From: Thiobacillus sp.
GTDB taxonomy: Bacteria; Pseudomonadota; Gammaproteobacteria; Burkholderiales; Thiobacillaceae
NCBI GenBank assembly: GCA_030679915.1
Contig: JAUXRY010000041.1
Span: 1 to 64,000, forward strand
DNA length: 64,000 bases
Direction of reading: 5' to 3'
Each line of letters begins with the position of its first letter. The first letter of the stretch is position 1. Under the pieces are notes generated by a model. It did not search any database. It was given only the letters and a program-made list of their open reading frames with translations, and was not told the origin of the DNA. Position numbers and translations under genes: made by a program. Shown piece by piece: positions 8,616-16,492 of the stretch.

Positions 8616-8644
8616 ATCATGAGGCGAATGAGAACGATTGTCAA
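8616..8644 (-). promoter_or_regulatory. Fur-box promoter of bfd
   Basis: On the minus strand a perfect -35 TTGACA (8644-8639) is followed after 17 bases by CATGAT (8621-8616), a weak -10. The palindrome TGAGAACGATTGTCA (8629-8643, plus-strand reading) overlaps the -35 and matches the TGA-AA---TT-TCA core of Fur boxes. Iron-bound Fur should block the promoter. Position relative to bfd supports this; binding is inferred. Confidence 0.75.
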
Positions 8645-8781: not shown

Positions 8782-9405
8782 TTAGCCTGTAGCGCATTGC
8801 CCAAGGCCGGGAAATGTGTGCATGTCGTCAGCCCGGCTGGCTATTTGTTGCGTTATTTGCCGGGCGAGACGTGGACGAACCCAGGCCATCGCAATCCCGA
8901 TTCCCAGCACCAGTGTGACGAAATAGAGCGCCATCAAACCGTTGTATCCGAGTGGCGAAAACGGTTTGGCCACTCCGATAAACGCGGCGTAAAACCATGT
9001 TGCGGCACTTACGCCACCGAGTAACGCCGGTAGAAATGCAGCGCGGGAGGCATTCTTCTGCGGCAGGGCGAGGCGTGGGAATGCGTATCGGTGAAGCAGA
9101 ACACCATTGATCGTCAGAATGACAACGACGGTTAATTTGGCCAGCAGTTTACCGTTGGCAGCGATAGCGCTCAGCTCGAAACGGGTATCCAGCCATATGA
9201 TTATCGCGCCGCTGATCCAGAGCGTAGTGAGGGTGATGCTCACCATGCGGGCGGATTTGTTCAGGAGTGGGTTGTTGACGCGCCGCCACGCAAAGATGGC
9301 AAAGTCGCCAAAAGTGATCGCCACAGTCGCCGCGACAAAGAAGAGTATGTGGAGGTAAATCAAACTTGCGCGCGCCACTGCTGGCATGTCCAGACTATCA
9401 ATCAT
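8782..9405 (-). CDS. Uncharacterised multi-pass membrane protein, possibly iron-regulated
   Basis: I do not recognise this 207-aa protein. It has about five to six hydrophobic helices, beginning ASLIYLHILFFVAATVAI. Histidines lie in or next to helices (IYLHILFF, GVLLHRYAFP), so haem b binding is conceivable but unproven. ATG at 9405 is preferred over the TTG at 9441, which lacks support. The gene sits between bfd and the porin of the Feo run, on the same strand, and a Fur-box-like palindrome lies about 60 bases upstream. That context suggests a role in iron metabolism, perhaps membrane electron transfer. Confidence 0.7.
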   Translation of the reverse strand: MIDSLDMPAVARASLIYLHILFFVAATVAITFGDFAIFAWRRVNNPLLNKSARMVSITLTTLWISGAIIIWLDTRFELSAIAANGKLLAKLTVVVILTINGVLLHRYAFPRLALPQKNASRAAFLPALLGGVSAATWFYAAFIGVAKPFSPLGYNGLMALYFVTLVLGIGIAMAWVRPRLARQITQQIASRADDMHTFPGLGQCATG

Positions 9406-9463
9406 GGTTGTGTCCCAATATGAAAATAGCTGGCGATGCAAAGGCTTGGCTGGCTGAAATTAA

Positions 9464-9490
9464 TGAAAAACGTTATCGAAATCGGTAACG
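9464..9490 (-). promoter_or_regulatory. Fur-box-like site and overlapping palindrome
   Basis: TGAAAAACGTTATCG (9464-9478) fits the 15-base Fur core except at the last base. It overlaps a second, 20-base imperfect palindrome CGTTATCGAAATCGGTAACG (9471-9490) with four mismatched positions. Both lie upstream of the membrane protein gene starting at 9405. No clear -35/-10 pair could be fixed. Confidence 0.5.
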
Positions 9491-9626: not shown

Positions 9627-10850
9627 TTAGAACTGGTAACCGACCCCCAGGTTGAAGCCGTTCTGGTTCTTGCCGTCGTCGTTGTTCTGCTTCTGGTAGT
9701 CGGCCTTCAGCACGACATCGGGATGGGGTTTGAAGCTCACGCCCGTATCAATCTGCTTCTTTTTGCTGCCGACATTATCTCCTGCTTTGTTGTCCCACAG
9801 GCCGTAGCGTGCGAAGACGCCCCATTGCTCGGACAGCTTGTAGGAAGGTTCGACATACCAGCCATTTTGCTTGTCGGCGCCGATGGCTGCGGGTCCGCTA
9901 CCATCGAGATCCCATTGCGCGAACAACGCTTTAAGGCCGAATGCCCCTTTGTTGTAAATGCCGTGCAACTCGTACAGATTGGCGCTGCCAGCTGTGGGGT
10001 CCAGACCTTGCGTGATATCTGTTTGATGCTGGATGGAGCCGCCGAGCTCGATGCCAGGCACGCCAGTCCACTTCAATCGGGCAGTGGTGGCGAGATTCTT
10101 GGCGCGTGCTTCGCTGGTTTTCTGGCGACCGTCGCGCGGCTTGTAATTGTTGGCGGCCGTGGTTGAAAGGCCTTCATGTACGGCCAGGTCGTAGCTGAAG
10201 CTGTCGCCCAGCTGGCCGGACACCGCTGCGCCACCCGCCCACCAGGTTGCGGGGATGATGTCCTTCTCGACCGAGTTACGTTCCACACCGTAGAACGCAG
10301 GCGGTTCGTGGGTTTCGTTCATGATGCCCACCGGCAGTAAAAACAGGCCGGCCTTGCCGCGATGGTTGGGCGTAAAGTCATATTCGATGTAAGCCTGTTC
10401 GAGCTCGATTTCGCCTTTTTTCCCCTCGCCCGCAATGCTGTGCTCAACTTCAAGTTCGGAGAAAAAACGGGTGCGTTCATTGAAAGTGTGGCCGAGAAAC
10501 AGCACGAAGCGGTGGAAATCGAGCTCGTCCTTGTCCTTTGCGCCCCCTTTCCCTTCAAGGTTGTTGTAGTGCAGCTCTCCATAACCACCGATGCGGGTTT
10601 TTTCAGCCCAGGATGACGTGCCGGTTGAGCCATGGTGAGACGTTTTTTCAACTTGTTCGCTGGTGGCTGCCACCTTTTGTTCGGTGGTCTTGAGCTGGCC
10701 CTTGAGTGACTGGTTTTCCGTTTCCAGCGCATTCATGCGGGCTTCCATGGCTTTGAGGCGTTCTTCCACGCTCATGTCGGCAGCAGCCGGTGCGGCAAAG
10801 GTCGATAGAACAGCGGCTGCAAGTGCGGCGCGGATCAATGGGTGTTTCAT
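9627..10850 (-). CDS. Outer membrane porin with N-terminal coiled coil (OprO/OprP-like)
   Basis: A 407-aa outer membrane protein. A signal peptide (MKHPLIRAALAAAVLSTFAAPAAA) is followed by a heptad-rich coiled coil (VEERLKAMEARMNALETENQSLKG, about residues 28-70), which may trimerise or reach toward peptidoglycan. A beta-barrel starting at RIGGYGELHYNN follows and ends in the outer membrane insertion signal GVGYQF with terminal Phe. The barrel resembles phosphate-selective porins, but no substrate residues can be named. Last gene of the hemP-feoBA run, 72 bases after the DUF4405-like gene, with GGGA before the ATG. Confidence 0.85.
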   Translation of the reverse strand: MKHPLIRAALAAAVLSTFAAPAAADMSVEERLKAMEARMNALETENQSLKGQLKTTEQKVAATSEQVEKTSHHGSTGTSSWAEKTRIGGYGELHYNNLEGKGGAKDKDELDFHRFVLFLGHTFNERTRFFSELEVEHSIAGEGKKGEIELEQAYIEYDFTPNHRGKAGLFLLPVGIMNETHEPPAFYGVERNSVEKDIIPATWWAGGAAVSGQLGDSFSYDLAVHEGLSTTAANNYKPRDGRQKTSEARAKNLATTARLKWTGVPGIELGGSIQHQTDITQGLDPTAGSANLYELHGIYNKGAFGLKALFAQWDLDGSGPAAIGADKQNGWYVEPSYKLSEQWGVFARYGLWDNKAGDNVGSKKKQIDTGVSFKPHPDVVLKADYQKQNNDDGKNQNGFNLGVGYQF

Positions 10851-10922
10851 GGTGAGTCCCTTTAGGTCGGTTGAGAAAAGGGCTGGCTGGGGGCAAATGC
10901 CCGTGGCTGGCAGTTTAAAAAA

Positions 10923-11408
10923 TCAGGCGGCATTGGATGCGCGCTGCGTGGAGGTGGCAGGTGGGGGACGGCGGCGGCCGAGGCGTATGTGCATCAGTCC
11001 GCCCAATGGCAACGCCAGACCGGCTATCCAGTGTGCAAGCGGTAACCAGGCCTCGTTGGATTCGGATAAAAAGTAATACAGCGCGTAGCCGGTGAGCGCG
11101 AGCCACAGCAAATACGCTTTCATCGCCAGACCGGAGCGTCGGTTCTTGTTGAGCTGCCAGGCCCGGTGCGCATGAATGGGCAGCACCGAGCCGATGGCCA
11201 CCAGCGAGGCGAAGGCCATCAGGCCATGCAGGCGCAGCCACCAGGACTCGAGTGGGTGGGCCGCGTCGCCGAAGTCGCCCGGCACACGCAAAAAATAGTG
11301 AAACAGCAGCCAAAGCGCGCCGGATACCCATAGCGCGAACACGATTGCGTACAAGCTGCGTTTTTGGCGTGGCCCCATGCGGATGGGTAAGGGATGGTGA
11401 CGGCTCAT
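10923..11408 (-). CDS. Four-helix membrane protein, DUF4405-like (putative b-type electron carrier)
   Basis: A 161-aa inner membrane protein with about four helices. Histidines sit at helix ends or centres: LLFHYF, LRLHGLMAF, VLPIHAHRAW, LAHWIAG and GGLMHI. This is typical of small haem-b-binding membrane proteins such as the DUF4405 group. The ATG at 11408 overlaps the apbE stop (ATGA); the longer open frame upstream is apbE out of frame. Adjacent FMN-binding and ApbE genes suggest it carries electrons across the inner membrane to the periplasmic flavoprotein. That role is inferred, and haem binding is not shown. Confidence 0.7.
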   Translation of the reverse strand: MSRHHPLPIRMGPRQKRSLYAIVFALWVSGALWLLFHYFLRVPGDFGDAAHPLESWWLRLHGLMAFASLVAIGSVLPIHAHRAWQLNKNRRSGLAMKAYLLWLALTGYALYYFLSESNEAWLPLAHWIAGLALPLGGLMHIRLGRRRPPPATSTQRASNAA

Positions 11409-12358
11409 TCGGCAGCGACCTCCGGCAGGGCATCGCGCCAACCTGTCGAATCGGACAGGCGGACGCGGCAATAGGCAGGCAGGGTTGGATCGGCGTCGAT
11501 CATGACGGCGTGCGCGCCAAAATGATCGAGCACGGCAATAGCCCGGTCGGGTTCGGCGAATACTACCTTGGTGAGCGCGTCGGCCAGCATGCACTGATCG
11601 GTTAGCACGCTTACGCTGCGTATATCGATGCAGGGTTGGCGCGTGGCCGCGTTGATCAACGGCGTGACCACGCGGCCTTGATGTTGGCGTTGGCTGAAAT
11701 ACGACGCCGAGGTGGCCACGGCCCCCTCGCGCAATTGGCACAGTGGGAGCAGCTGGGTGGCCGCCCCGGGGTGGCGCACGCGGATGGTTTCCGCCGCTTC
11801 GCCAAACAGCCGCAGGTCGCCGCCTGCATTGACCCGGCCCGCCAGTAGGCCGGCGTCCTGCAGCGCGCCTAGGGCGCAGTCGACCGCATAGCCTTTTGCG
11901 ATGCCGCCCAGATCGATGTGCAAGGGGCGACTGAATCGCACGCGATGATCGGGCAGCAGTTCGATGTGCTGCCAGTTCGCTGCGGCATCAGCTGGAGCGA
12001 AATCGGCGTGGTGCGGCAGATACCCTTCGCGCACCAGTTCCGGCGCGATGCTGATGTCGAACAGTCCGTTGCTGGCCTCGGCGATGGAACGTGCGGTGTC
12101 CAGCACGAACCAGGTATGGGGGTCGACCGTGATGCCCGTTGTGCCGCTGCGGTTAAGCTGCGACACGTCGGATTTCGGATCGTGATAACTCATCAGGGAT
12201 TGAATTCGTTCCACTGCCACAAAGGCCTGTTCGATCGCTGTATTCAATGCCTGTGTCGACGCACCGCGCGCGCTGATTTCCACCAGCGTGCCCAGCAACG
12301 GCCGCGCACGCGTTAGCGCGCCGCCATGCTGTGGAGAGGCGGCGGCGATCGGATTCAC
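11405..12358 (-). CDS. apbE: FAD:protein FMN transferase (ApbE)
   Basis: Transfers FMN from FAD to a Thr/Ser of extracytoplasmic flavoproteins. About 317 aa from GTG at 12358, which overlaps the stop of the FMN-binding gene (GTGA). Family motifs seen: RPLLGTLVEI at the N-terminus, MSYHDPKSDVSQLNRSG, IAKGYAVDCAL, GRVNAGGDLRLFG, and SVSVLTDQCMLADALTK with the Mg-binding Asp. No clear signal peptide is present with this start; an ATG at 12418 would add 20 residues without one either. Its likely target is the protein encoded just upstream. Confidence 0.9.
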   Translation of the reverse strand: MNPIAAASPQHGGALTRARPLLGTLVEISARGASTQALNTAIEQAFVAVERIQSLMSYHDPKSDVSQLNRSGTTGITVDPHTWFVLDTARSIAEASNGLFDISIAPELVREGYLPHHADFAPADAAANWQHIELLPDHRVRFSRPLHIDLGGIAKGYAVDCALGALQDAGLLAGRVNAGGDLRLFGEAAETIRVRHPGAATQLLPLCQLREGAVATSASYFSQRQHQGRVVTPLINAATRQPCIDIRSVSVLTDQCMLADALTKVVFAEPDRAIAVLDHFGAHAVMIDADPTLPAYCRVRLSDSTGWRDALPEVAAE

Positions 12359-12894
12359 TTCAATGCGGTCTCGTGCAGTGCGAGGATGCGGCGCACCCCT
12401 TCGCTGATGTGCTTGCACGAGAGCGTGGCACCGCTGATGTTCTGGATGTCGTTATCCAGTCGCAGCGAAGCGCCGTGCTTCTTGCCATTAAACTGCGCGC
12501 GCCAGTTGGCATTGCGAATTTCGCGGCCGTGGGTTTCACGGTAGTCGAGTATCTCTACACCCAGTACGGTGCCGGCCATGTCGAGGGCGACGGCATAGGT
12601 GATGAATTCGTGCTTGCCGAACACTTCGTCCTGTACCACCCAGCCTACCTGCTTGCCGTTGTCGATCGCTTTCCAGACCGGCTGCTTGTTGTAGCGCATG
12701 CGCACGCCGGCCGCCTTCTCTATGAAGCTTTTTTGATCGGCAGTGAATTCAACTGGCATCGACGCGAAACTGTCAGCCTGAGGAAAGAATTGCTTCTGCG
12801 CCTGCTCGATATTCATGTATTGCACGGCGTAGGCTGGTGCAGCGACAAAGGCGGCAAGTGCAGGGGCGATCAGCCATACGGGTGGATGGTGCAT
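12355..12894 (-). CDS. Periplasmic FMN-binding domain protein (flavinylation target)
   Basis: A 179-aa exported protein. Signal peptide MHHPPVWLIAPALAAFVAAPAYA. The C-terminal FMN-binding domain, as in NqrC/RnfG, contains LGVEILDYRETHG and the acceptor motif SGATLSCKH. In this family ApbE links FMN to the Thr of S-G-A-T. The apbE gene follows with a GTGA overlap, and an outer membrane protein gene precedes by 10 bases. In this iron-uptake run the flavoprotein is a good candidate for an extracytoplasmic electron donor to Fe3+ or a ferric complex. That reaction is inference. Confidence 0.87.
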   Translation of the reverse strand: MHHPPVWLIAPALAAFVAAPAYAVQYMNIEQAQKQFFPQADSFASMPVEFTADQKSFIEKAAGVRMRYNKQPVWKAIDNGKQVGWVVQDEVFGKHEFITYAVALDMAGTVLGVEILDYRETHGREIRNANWRAQFNGKKHGASLRLDNDIQNISGATLSCKHISEGVRRILALHETALK

Positions 12895-12904
12895 GGTCGT
12901 ATCC

Positions 12905-13849
12905 TCAAAAGTTGTAGCCGAGCTTGAAACGCAACTCGTGCTTGGTTTTTTCGATCAGGTGCAGGTTGTCTGCCGCCTGGTTGATGTATTGCTCCTTGCC
13001 ACCTGCCAGTTGTTCGAACCAGGTCAGCGTGGCCCACCATTGCTTGCTGCCGTAGTGGATCGAGGGGCCGGCGAACACGCTCCAGCGTTCCTGTCCGACT
13101 TCGGTTTCGAATTCGGTCTCGTACAAGGCTTCCATGCCGACCGACCAGTTGGGCGCAAAGCGATAGGAGGCGCCCGCGCCGAGCTTGAATTCGATTTCCA
13201 TTTCCGGCTCGGTCGGCCACTCGAAACTGGCCGATGGATCGTTGTTCAGTGTCTGAATGGCCGCGTCGGCGCTAGCTTGCCTGGAGGCACTGAGTGATGC
13301 GCGCTTGGCGTAGGTGGCCTCGATACCGGTGTTGGCAATCAGTGTGAGCTGGTCGTCCAGCAGCAGCTTTTGCAATTGCAGGCCGAACTCCGCCTTGGTC
13401 GTGTCCTTGTCCAGACCCGAATGCGGATCGCGCCATAACTGAACCAGCGCCACGGTGCCCGACAGCCCGATTGGGTCCTTGGCTGCGCTGAGGAAGTTGT
13501 ACTTGAGTTTGCCTTCGACACCGGATGGTTTGAGCCCGTAGCTTTTCGCACCCGGCAGATAACCGTCGATCACCAGTCCCTGGGTGTCGATCGACTGTCC
13601 CTTGAGTTCGAGCGACGCGGTCAGCCGGTGTGTCAGGCCGTATTCATACTCGGCGCTGATATCGTTGGCCTGGTAGCGGCCTTGGCCCTTGTCCCAGCGA
13701 TGGGTCATGAACAGATAGGCCTCGCTTGCGCCTTTAGGCAGGGTTTCCGCGCCGGATACATACCCCAGCAGGTTTTCGTCGGCCAGCGCGGGCAGCGCCA
13801 GTAGTGCGGCGGCGAGCGCAGTCATGCTTGGGGTGAATTTGACAGCCAT
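12905..13849 (-). CDS. Outer membrane beta-barrel protein, function unknown (DUF6662-like)
   Basis: A 314-aa exported protein. After a signal peptide (MAVKFTPSMTALAAALLALPALA) it is rich in alternating aromatic/polar strands (ISAEYEYGLTHRLTASLELKG, GVEGKLKYNF, WSVFAGPSIHYGSKQWWATLTWF) and ends in FKLGYNF with terminal Phe, as outer membrane barrels do. I cannot assign a transport substrate. It lies 142 bases after feoA and 10 before the FMN-binding gene, so it belongs to the same run. The gap contains the repeated motif GGCTGGCTGG but no convincing terminator. Confidence 0.75.
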   Translation of the reverse strand: MAVKFTPSMTALAAALLALPALADENLLGYVSGAETLPKGASEAYLFMTHRWDKGQGRYQANDISAEYEYGLTHRLTASLELKGQSIDTQGLVIDGYLPGAKSYGLKPSGVEGKLKYNFLSAAKDPIGLSGTVALVQLWRDPHSGLDKDTTKAEFGLQLQKLLLDDQLTLIANTGIEATYAKRASLSASRQASADAAIQTLNNDPSASFEWPTEPEMEIEFKLGAGASYRFAPNWSVGMEALYETEFETEVGQERWSVFAGPSIHYGSKQWWATLTWFEQLAGGKEQYINQAADNLHLIEKTKHELRFKLGYNF

Positions 13850-13991
13850 GGTGCTTCCTTTCAGTTTGATGAATTGCTTGGATCAAGCTGGCTGGCAACG
13901 GGCTGGCTGGCGTGGTTTTTCAGGTGCGGCACCCGACTCAAGGCACCGCGGAACATCGGTAAAAATATCGGTTAGTAAACCAGGTGGGCTT

Positions 13992-14240
13992 TCATTTTCG
14001 GGTCACCCATACAAGGCGCGCCACACTGTCTTCCAGCGCGAGCTCGACTTCGTCGATCATCACCAGTGTCATGGGATGCTGCTGCAACACGATGAGCGGA
14101 CGACCCGGTGCCAAGCCATAAGCGATGATCTGTTCACGCTGGGTCGGGTCGATGGCGTCGTCGAGCGCGTCGACCTCGGCGCGGGCCCCGGGCAGCAAAA
14201 ACGCAAGGGGTACCCGGGCTTTGTGGTCGTGCGTACTCAT
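13992..14240 (-). CDS. feoA: Ferrous iron transport protein A
   Basis: Small cytoplasmic SH3-fold partner of FeoB. The 82-aa product has the FeoA layout (VPLAFLLPGARAEVDAL...REQIIAYGLAPGRPLIVLQQHPMTLVMIDEVELALEDSVARLVWV). ATG at 14240 overlaps the feoB stop (ATGA). The order feoB-feoA is reversed from the more common feoA-feoB. Confidence 0.88.
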   Translation of the reverse strand: MSTHDHKARVPLAFLLPGARAEVDALDDAIDPTQREQIIAYGLAPGRPLIVLQQHPMTLVMIDEVELALEDSVARLVWVTRK

Positions 14241-16165
14241 AACCACACCGCCCGCAGCAAATGGTTAAGCAAGCCGCCGATCAAAAAGGCGAACGGGACG
14301 ATGAAGGCGATCATGGCCGCGGCGATTTTCCAGCCTTGCTCTTTCACGATCATCATCACGCTGGCGATGCACGGCACGAACAGCGTGATGGTGACCATGC
14401 CGACCACCGCCTGGATGGGCGACAGCTGATGGCTGAGGGCAAACAGGCCAGTGGCGCCAAAGTCGCGCCGCAGAAAGCCCATCACGAAAGCGGCGCTGGC
14501 CTCCGGGGGCAGCCCCAGCCAGCCCGACACCAGCGGTTCGCCGGCGCGGATGATCGCGGGCAGCGCACCAAACTGATTCAGCAGGAACATGATCAGGGTG
14601 CCCAGGAGGAACAGCGGAATCACCTCGATCAGGTACCACTTGATCCGCCCCACGGTTTTTTTGGCGACGTTGCCAAACAGCGGCAGCCGGATCGGCGGCA
14701 TTTCGGTCACCAGCGGAATACGCCGGCCCGGGATTATCTTGGCGGCGAGAAAGCCGGCCAGCAGCAAGACCCCCACCATGGAAGCCGCCCAGATCAGTGT
14801 GGCGGTAAACGAAATGCCGCCCAGCAAGCCGAGCACCACCCCCAGTTGGGCCGAGCAGGGGATCGCCAGCGCCATCAGGAAAATGGTGATAAGGCGTTCG
14901 CGGGGGCTATGCAGAATGCGGGTGGTGAGCGTGGACATGGTGACGCAGCCGAGCCCCAGCACCATCGGCAGTACGGCGCGTCCATTCAGGCCGATCAGCT
15001 TGAACAGGCGGTTGGCCAATACTGACAACCGCGCGAAATAACCGGAGTCCTCCAGCAGGCCAAAGATGATGAAGAAGGTGGTGACGATGGGCAGGATCAG
15101 CGCCAGCGCGTAGGTCATGCCCATGGTCCACAAGCCATACTCGCCGACCAGCAGGTCGGCCATCCAAACCACACCAATATGCTCACGCACGAACGCCGTA
15201 ACCACCGGGTTTAATATATTGCCGAACAGGTCGTTTTCCATCAGACCGACCAGGGTGCCGGCGCCAAACACGCCGACAAATTCGTACAGTGCAAACAACA
15301 CGCCCAGCAGAATCGGCCAGGCCCAGAAGCGGTGGATGATCAATTGACCAATACGATGCGCAAGCAGTGGGCTGGCCTGCTCAGTGCGGGCCGTCACGCG
15401 GCTGGTCAGAGTACTTGCGGCCTCGCCCCGTTCGTGCGCCAACGCAGCGGGCAGCACACCCTTTGCCTGGGCGGCGGCACGCGCCGACACCAAGTCGGCG
15501 CCATTTTCGCCCGCGGCCTCGGACAGCCAGGCCTCGACCTCGCTGTCTTGTCCCAGATACAGTATGGCCAGTCCGCGCGCATTCAACCGGGGATGGGGCG
15601 CGTGCAGGCTGATGCGATTGGCGAGGTCGCTAATCGCGGCTTCGGTGTCAGTGTCGTAATGCAGTAACGGCAGCATCGCACGCGCGTCGGCAAGGCTGCG
15701 CGTCAGTTGCGCCATGCCCTCGCCGCCGGTTGCGACGGTTGGAATTACCGGAATACCGAGCGCGCTCGACAGTGCCTGCGCATCCACCGTCACGCCGCGC
15801 GCGCCGGCTTCGTCGTGCATGTTGAGCGCCAGTACAGCGGGTACGCCCAACTCGGCCAGCAGCGCGGTGAGCGTCAGGGTACGGCGCAGGTTCTTGGCAT
15901 CGCCCACCTGAATCACTGCGCGCAAGGGTTCGTGCAACAGCGCACGCATGGTGGCGCGTTCGTCGTCGCTGCGTGCCGGCAGGGTCAGCACGCCGGGTGT
16001 GTCGATGAGGTCAACCGCTGCATCAAAGCGCGCTGTCGCTCGGGCCACTTCGACGGTCGTGCCAGGATAGTTTGAGACGTTCACATACGCACCGGTCAGG
16101 CGATGGAACAGTACGGATTTCCCGACGTTGGGGTTGCCGACGAGGGCGATGGCGGAAGCGGTCAT
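14237..16165 (-). CDS. feoB: Ferrous iron transporter FeoB
   Basis: Inner membrane Fe2+ importer with an N-terminal GTPase. The 642-aa protein shows G1 GNPNVGKS (residues 11-18), G2 in NYPGTTVE, G3 DTPG, and G4 LNMHD (the usual NxxD). A spacer follows, then about eight to ten membrane helices with the Gate motifs (GLGCVTMSTLTTR, a Cys-containing gate, and FVPCIASVMMIVKEQGW). The length is at the short end for the family. hemP lies 52 bases upstream and feoA overlaps downstream. Control is expected from the Fur-box promoter before hemP. Confidence 0.96.
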   Translation of the reverse strand: MTASAIALVGNPNVGKSVLFHRLTGAYVNVSNYPGTTVEVARATARFDAAVDLIDTPGVLTLPARSDDERATMRALLHEPLRAVIQVGDAKNLRRTLTLTALLAELGVPAVLALNMHDEAGARGVTVDAQALSSALGIPVIPTVATGGEGMAQLTRSLADARAMLPLLHYDTDTEAAISDLANRISLHAPHPRLNARGLAILYLGQDSEVEAWLSEAAGENGADLVSARAAAQAKGVLPAALAHERGEAASTLTSRVTARTEQASPLLAHRIGQLIIHRFWAWPILLGVLFALYEFVGVFGAGTLVGLMENDLFGNILNPVVTAFVREHIGVVWMADLLVGEYGLWTMGMTYALALILPIVTTFFIIFGLLEDSGYFARLSVLANRLFKLIGLNGRAVLPMVLGLGCVTMSTLTTRILHSPRERLITIFLMALAIPCSAQLGVVLGLLGGISFTATLIWAASMVGVLLLAGFLAAKIIPGRRIPLVTEMPPIRLPLFGNVAKKTVGRIKWYLIEVIPLFLLGTLIMFLLNQFGALPAIIRAGEPLVSGWLGLPPEASAAFVMGFLRRDFGATGLFALSHQLSPIQAVVGMVTITLFVPCIASVMMIVKEQGWKIAAAMIAFIVPFAFLIGGLLNHLLRAVWL

Positions 16166-16216
16166 AGGGTCTGCTGGCGGCGGCGGGTGGAGGGGAGCAA
16201 GATGTTGGCGGACAAC

Positions 16217-16399
16217 TTATTTGGTCAAAATCAGCTTGCCATTCTTGGTGATGCGCAAACGATAGGTGTCGCCGTTATGCCCGATCAGAATTTCCTGGCT
16301 GCCCCGGAACAGACGGTCTGCCGGAACGATGTCCGTTGGCAGGCCGCGTTGTGCGACTTCATTTGGCAGGCGAGCAGGAGCGGGAGCAGTGTTGGGCAT
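16217..16399 (-). CDS. hemP: HemP-family small protein
   Basis: A 60-aa protein ending in the HemP domain signature: LFRGSQEILIGHNGDTYRLRI then TKNGKLILTK. HemP/HmuP proteins are small Fur-regulated products found before haem or iron uptake genes; in some betaproteobacteria they activate TonB-receptor gene expression. ATG at 16399 is chosen because the longer frame to 16492 would begin inside the Fur-box promoter. It lies immediately upstream of feoB, suggesting a regulatory or coupling role in the Feo run. Confidence 0.8.
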   Translation of the reverse strand: MPNTAPAPARLPNEVAQRGLPTDIVPADRLFRGSQEILIGHNGDTYRLRITKNGKLILTK

Positions 16400-16463
16400 G
16401 TTGAGCTGGATCAGAGGGTAGCCGGGCTGGTTAGTGAGATTACTTATACAAATTGAGACAAGA

Positions 16464-16492
16464 ATGATAACGATTCTCAATAAATAAAACAA
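16464..16492 (-). promoter_or_regulatory. Fur-box promoter of hemP-feoB
   Basis: Minus strand: TTGTTT (16492-16487), 17 bases, then TATCAT (16469-16464). The palindrome TGATAACGATTCTCA (16465-16479, plus-strand reading) overlaps the -10 and matches the Fur core TGA-AA---TT-TCA at every conserved position. Iron-loaded Fur should occlude RNA polymerase. The predicted leader to the hemP ATG is roughly 60 bases. Confidence 0.85.

Follow-up and report, generated by a model that had tools for sequence, protein, structure and literature searches.

A portable four-gene cassette, predicted to act as an envelope ferric reductase, within a Feo operon of Thiobacillus sp.

A 64,000-nucleotide (nt) stretch of Thiobacillus sp. 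DNA (assembly GCA_030679915.1, contig JAUXRY010000041.1, positions 1 to 64,000 of the forward strand; hereafter the window), from a genome of 2.5 Mb and 80% completeness, carries a run of eight minus-strand genes in the order hemP-feoB-feoA-DUF6662 barrel-FMN_bind-apbE-four-helix protein-porin. The conserved unit within this run consists of four genes. They encode a barrel of the outer membrane (DUF6662 or, in some loci, a porin), an FMN_bind protein that is exported, a homologue of ApbE and a membrane protein with four helices that resembles cytochrome b; this portable gene set recurs in distant bacteria. We consider it fairly probable that these genes form an iron-starvation-induced, envelope-spanning ferric reductase cassette that has here been placed in a Feo operon, a reading drawn from gene linkage and protein anatomy. 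The genes and the sites ahead of them are as follows.

16460..16484, one site per strand: two overlapping Fur-box-like sites ahead of hemP, each matching 14/19 positions of a 19-mer consensus
16217..16399, minus strand: hemP (PF10636, E 3e-18), start most likely ATG 16399 instead of TTG 16492
14237..16165, minus strand: feoB, Fe2+ transporter (TIGR00437, 380.7 bits against a cut-off of 315.65)
13992..14246, minus strand: feoA (PF04023, E 6e-9, 36.3 bits against a cut-off of 23)
12905..13849, minus strand: DUF6662 outer-membrane barrel, 12 strands predicted (PF20367, E 5e-163, 542 bits against a cut-off of 27)
12355..12894, minus strand: exported FMN_bind protein with an SGAT flavin acceptor motif (PF04205, E 2e-11), a relative of RnfG and NqrC
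11405..12358, minus strand: apbE homologue (PF02424, E 1e-48) in which no signal peptide is recognisable and the His of canonical SH[IL]IDP is missing
10923..11408, minus strand: four-helix membrane protein, predicted diheme b-type cytochrome (H61, H79, H126, H140)
9627..10850, minus strand: coiled-coil porin (PF13609, E 5e-9)

Named genomes were scanned with an alignment of the flavin mononucleotide (FMN) protein; the best 80 of 325 relatives were kept and, together with L036-L039, make up the 84 loci counted here. FMN_bind is present in all 84, apbE in 80, the four-helix protein in 78, DUF6662 in 75, hemP in 27, the porin in 21 and feoB in 18; barrel linkage is over-represented in these figures because the seeds of the alignment were found via DUF6662, and the membrane-protein profile was drawn from the same loci. 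The loci are not independent, some contigs of L062-L080 duplicating others in the set (L060/L071 and L061/L076 among them). All four cassette genes occur in 68/84 loci, some of the missing ones falling at contig ends (e.g. L063, L086), and the order barrel-FMN_bind-apbE-membrane protein recurs. The earlier note on this DNA had treated the eight genes as one functional unit; as a conserved whole that set is ruled out, the recurring part being the FMN_bind-apbE-membrane protein core plus the barrel, mostly away from FeoB.

Going by the record titles, the cassette is carried by Thiobacillus, Sulfuriferula, Sideroxydans, Novosphingobium, Duganella, Microbulbifer, Verrucomicrobia, Omnitrophota and Bdellovibrionales, among others. 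PF20367 is matched in 6/299 genomes sampled from the phylum and 23/117 from the family, while within the genus the same 17/56 genomes carry both DUF6662 and the four-helix protein. The four-helix profile matches 8 of the 299 phylum genomes, five of which (G042, G293, G189, G291 and G262) show the order FMN_bind-apbE-membrane protein; G042 has a further copy (L192) in which the membrane protein is encoded on the opposite strand and no gene is labelled apbE, and for G147 and G267 only nearness of the match to DUF6662 was seen. Two loci (L052, the same contig as L078, and L053, the same contig as L080) have a tandem pair of FMN_bind genes in a single core operon. In the soil Verrucomicrobia loci L105, L106, L109 and L116, DUF6662 or apbE is broken into at least two frames, through decay or assembly error.

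In the window, gene content, order and single direction are as the earlier note described them, with small corrections of start sites. The junctions are, in order, 51 nt, a 10-nt overlap, 142 nt, 10 nt, two 4-nt overlaps and 72 nt, the largest gap being the 142 nt between feoA and the barrel gene. FeoB has FeoB_N, Gate and FeoB_C domains, so that both the G and Gate domains of the transporter are present, and the 10-nt overlap joins feoB to its FeoA partner. The start of apbE is most likely GTG 12358, which gives one of the 4-nt overlaps; in the other, the ATG of the four-helix protein overlaps the apbE stop. We place the hemP start at ATG 16399 since a Fur-box-like site falls within the longer frame from TTG 16492. 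No terminator-like site was found between the genes, those listed on the minus strand falling inside feoB or past the operon, and we infer that the eight genes are co-transcribed. A tRNA-Ala called by ARAGORN at 13858-13944 had no Rfam match and was taken as a false call.

The FMN_bind protein of the window was identified by the earlier note as an FMN-binding protein with an SGAT acceptor motif, and its PF04205 match and the sequence SGATLS agree with this. Its N-terminus reaches a hydrophobicity of 2.3 against a threshold of 1.6, consistent with export. Among 86 relatives, the motif [ST]GA[TS]xS is found in 84, a hydrophobic N-terminus over the threshold in 79 and an AxA site in 83; the protein of L037 has a twin-arginine-like start.

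For the barrel, an AlphaFold2 model (predicted local distance difference test score, pLDDT, 92) has 12 strands, and its nearest structures are FapF (PDB code 5o65, Z 22.9) and a COG4313 channel (4rl8, Z 22.3). No paper in the collection searched names DUF6662. Nine of the 84 loci are without DUF6662, and five of these have a porin resembling the last gene of the window. In L131, L140, L190 and L191 a porin stands in the first position of the cassette; the barrel thus seems exchangeable.

The four-helix protein (model pLDDT 92.9) is predicted to be a diheme b-type cytochrome. H61, H79, H126 and H140 are kept in 59/59 family rows. Negative charge is found in loop 1-2 (47/59 rows) and loop 3-4 (44/59), and positive charge at the N-terminus (56/59), in loop 2-3 (59/59) and at the C-terminus (58/59), a pattern that suggests an N-in/C-in topology with one His pair near each membrane face. 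The VIA rows include cytochrome b6, the hydrogenase-1 cytochrome b (6g94) and superoxide oxidase (5oc0), at Z about 10, a level that helical bundles can reach by chance. Foldseek with the same model gave no match at E ≤ 0.001, and there was no significant PDB sequence match. When family members were scanned singly at E ≤ 0.1, DUF4405 was matched by 20/59 and cytochrome b561 by 36/59, with a best PF01292 E value of 2e-7; the window protein itself has no DUF4405 Pfam match at E 1 and no PF01292 match. By these profiles the protein appears nearer to cytochrome b561/Ni_hydr_CYTB than to DUF4405, so that the earlier label 'DUF4405-like' holds only in part, through weak matches in some members of the family. 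No entry named DUF4405 or FezC is among the Foldseek and VIA matches listed, which is uninformative.

Ahead of hemP, the Fur box proposed earlier is present as two overlapping sites, at 16460-16478 on the plus strand and 16484-16466 on the minus strand, scored against the 19-mer Fur consensus. Matches of 14 positions are rare in the window (two on the plus strand). The further claim that the box covers the -10 was not borne out by a sigma-70 scan, which found no promoter there; a TTGTTT-17-TATCAT arrangement fits by eye. Across the family, one 320-base region before the first core gene was tested in the 77 named loci with enough sequence, against 850 control regions before other genes of the same loci, at a threshold of at least 13/19. 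Sites were found in 19/77 core loci and 45/850 controls (p 1.5e-7), in 13/52 loci without hemP (p 8e-6) and in 6/25 loci with hemP (p 2e-3). A looser first test gave 36/77 against 58/824, a figure inflated by two regions having been tried in hemP loci.

FeoB adjoins the core in 15/17 Thiobacillus genomes that carry the core. The linkage involves two FeoB subtypes and three arrangements. Its three places are the window clade, where type A lies upstream of the core; a second clade, where either type B or type A lies downstream of it; and L138. A tree of 82 cores, built by a quick method with SH-aLRT (Shimodaira-Hasegawa-like approximate likelihood-ratio) support and including 19 unlabelled rows, requires at least five changes of the FeoB label, four of them forced by starred branches, or seven when subtype and side are counted. 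L068 and L039 lie inside FeoB clades and are without FeoB; L069, on a short contig, has feoB-feoA-FMN_bind with the rest absent. Other iron genes also adjoin the core: in L036 it comes after imelysin-DHOR-imelysin-DUF1513, and a gene with a ferritin domain immediately precedes the core in L081 and L083 and is close to it in L090 and L120. An imelysin operon of such layout is described as Fur-regulated and involved in iron uptake in Pseudomonas (PMC3143127).

Eight FeoB loci from core-less Thiobacillus genomes were also retrieved, and in seven of these a total of ten neighbouring proteins were scanned. TonB-dependent receptors stand beside FeoB in L143, L146, L147 and L149, and there was none among the neighbour proteins scanned in L142, L144 and L145. 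L146, L147 and L149 have nagZ, czcD and hemP nearby, like the window. From the receptor genes and this shared context, the cassette may substitute for a TonB-dependent receptor at the FeoB site.

Taken together, these features suggest the following scheme. When iron is low, Fur would leave 16460-16484 and all eight genes would be made together. The four-helix protein, N-in/C-in and with two predicted b hemes, one held by H61/H126 towards the periplasm and the other by H79/H140 towards the cytosol, would take electrons from quinol, since the unit has no gene for an NAD(P)H-binding partner, and would pass them to the exported FMN protein. The latter would reduce Fe3+ admitted by the DUF6662 barrel or by the porin; FeoB would import the resulting Fe2+ here, and elsewhere other uptake routes would be served. 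The module ApbE most likely would attach FMN to the SGAT threonine before export. The envelope ferric-reductase reading of the earlier note is thereby upheld in part, with the unit itself, the enrichment of Fur-like sites and the recurrence beside FeoB and other iron genes in its favour, but regrouped around a four-gene cassette. FeoB takes only Fe2+, and the means by which Fe3+ is reduced in the envelope to supply it are known for few bacteria; a cassette lying beside FeoB and iron genes makes that question testable, and its cultured carriers include Sulfuriferula multivorans (strain TTN), Novosphingobium malaysiense, Duganella, Pseudoduganella violaceinigra (DSM 15887) and Microbulbifer variabilis.

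Besides the chance-range fold matches and the empty Foldseek search, several observations weigh against this scheme. FeoB is found in just 18/84 loci, counted anywhere in the fetched stretch and with L079 and L086 having it on the other strand. FeoB-bearing cores cluster on the tree (0/500 shuffles as low), so that independent linkage events are few. Two Thiobacillus genomes, G350 (99% complete, one contig) and G399 (87%), carry the core and no FeoB, no match going beyond E 1e-15 over the GTPase part, and FeoB exceeds the family cut-off in 16/39 core-less Thiobacillus genomes. In the strict test 58/77 loci are without a strong Fur-like site, L107 being the sole Verrucomicrobia-titled locus with one, and many neighbours outside Thiobacillus are housekeeping or unrelated genes. 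As stand-ins for FeoB, ZIP transporters are uninformative (present in 51/56 genus genomes) and Nramp was found in 0/3 genomes. In soil Verrucomicrobia (L105, L106, L113, L118 and similar) the core lies beside rpoB/rpoC-size genes, identified by size only, and beside ribosomal S2 and EF-Ts (scanned in L105 and L106, respectively); these housekeeping neighbours give no functional hint.

An alternative is an iron-regulated electron outlet or envelope redox relay that reduces not free Fe3+ but siderophore or heme complexes, or an outer-membrane or extracellular acceptor reached via the barrel, with the FeoB link secondary. The near-constant presence of a barrel (DUF6662 in 75/84 loci, a porin in five of the remaining nine), the greater frequency of hemP than of feoB (27 and 18 of 84) and the two Thiobacillus genomes with the core and without FeoB are what this alternative would lead one to expect, as are a PepSY_TM gene, a second flavinylation-type carrier, beside the core in a Verrucomicrobia metagenome-assembled genome (L096, 7858-8946) and ExbB in L126. 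However, linkage has arisen repeatedly to two FeoB types and once to the imelysin/DHOR operon, and the 30 proteins scanned (two of them FeoB, against a list of 91 candidate operon neighbours) included no gene for uptake of heme or siderophores other than those of L096 and L126. We consider this alternative unlikely.

The ApbE homologue bears on a further alternative. It has the ApbE domain and matches solved ApbEs by profile (best E 9e-37), but the earlier premise of an extracytoplasmic enzyme does not fit: by an ad hoc window measure, which is not a signal-peptide predictor, the N-terminus is hydrophobic in 0/79 module ApbEs (0.4 in the window protein). The second ApbE of the same genome passes that measure and retains a lipobox-like N-terminus and SHLIDP. 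In the module ApbEs, the SHLIDP His column holds H in 7/84 and P in 49/84 rows (two duplicate rows included), the window protein having P at this general-base position. A profile alignment to Vibrio cholerae ApbE puts the column at the same place as the alignment to the second ApbE, although the alignment is loose around it (some sphingomonad rows read SPH[IV]G, and L037 HIVDP). According to PMC12052999, His257 of V. cholerae ApbE is the general base and its replacement by Gly lowers activity, the minimal flavinylation motif comprises seven residues, and the cytosolic ApbEs named there act on fumarate reductases, that of Klebsiella being soluble.

With no signal peptide and, in most members, no catalytic His, the module ApbE may have no flavinylating activity at all, a further point against the scheme. 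It could then be a cytosolic protein that binds or cleaves FAD (flavin adenine dinucleotide), such as one that donates electrons to the cytochrome, or an FAD pyrophosphatase, the FMN being non-covalent or attached by another ApbE; this is compatible with ferric reduction by the cassette. The uniformly non-hydrophobic N-termini, the altered His column and the conventional second ApbE agree with such a loss of function. We nevertheless think it unlikely, since 82 and 83 of 84 rows retain, respectively, the Ser and the Asp aligned with the V. cholerae triad, the [ST]GAT motif is present in 84/86 FMN proteins and no ApbE besides that of the module was found in 4/17 genomes searched (G415, G419, G429 and G430, completeness not given) and likewise in G399. 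The missing signal peptide and these sole ApbEs point instead to flavinylation in the cytosol before export, and the short minimal motif makes modification of an unfolded precursor conceivable. A widespread Fur-controlled iron-reductase cassette whose divergent cytosolic ApbE flavinylates its partner before export, so that FMN is loaded inside and works outside, is a tentative proposal to which we give somewhat less than even credence. It raises the question of whether a flavin can be bound covalently to a protein in the cytosol and exported together with it.

That an ordinary Feo operon simply lies beside unrelated redox genes, the linkage being a chance of lineage, is very improbable: in other groups the core mostly stands with no FeoB in its neighbourhood, and FeoB often occurs without the core, but the 15/17 adjacency in the genus, the two FeoB subtypes in three arrangements and a Fur-site enrichment that holds in loci without hemP too all speak against it.

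Near the operon lie a bacterioferritin-like gene (PF00210, 7708-8187) and a bacterioferritin-associated ferredoxin-like gene (PF04324, 8368-8580), with a 13/19 Fur-box-like site beside them at 8624-8642; these genes and the operon perhaps form an iron island. A CopD-like membrane protein (8782-9441; weak, E 0.03) follows a 14/19 Fur-box-like site at 9459-9477 and, among loci L036-L061, was found in L040 only.

A literature search judged by titles and abstract openings, in a collection with few of the subscription journals, listed no paper on this gene set. Flavinylation has been proposed to serve iron reduction and uptake (PMC8238504), and the clusters in the accessible part of that paper resemble the predicted set of the window in having a flavinylated or FMN-binding protein, apbE and a membrane electron carrier beside an iron transporter, some of them being Fur-regulated. 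Their carriers are MsrQ, PepSY, DsbD or NQR/RNF-like proteins with VIT1, or P19 occurs with FTR1, whereas the window has a four-helix b561-like protein, the DUF6662 barrel and FeoB; in the text available there, 'Feo' occurs in the reference list only, and DUF4405 and b561 are absent. DUF4405/FezC cytochromes share with the window protein four central His residues and an apbE neighbourhood, and have a link to iron through ferrosomes, but DUF4405 is described as six-helix (PMC11334425), whereas the window protein has four helices and members of its family more often match Ni_hydr_CYTB. The cytochrome b561/Ni_hydr_CYTB proteins (5oc0 and 6g94; Z 9.9 and 10.0, subject to the helical-bundle caveat) share the four-helix core and the predicted His heme sites at 11-12% identity in the structure alignments. 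RnfG and NqrC share the FMN_bind domain and the SGAT motif, but the window protein is stand-alone and exported, with no Rnf/Nqr partners in its unit. Finally, feoB and feoA are those of a FeoAB transporter, which differs here in standing in one gene run with a predicted periplasmic redox unit.

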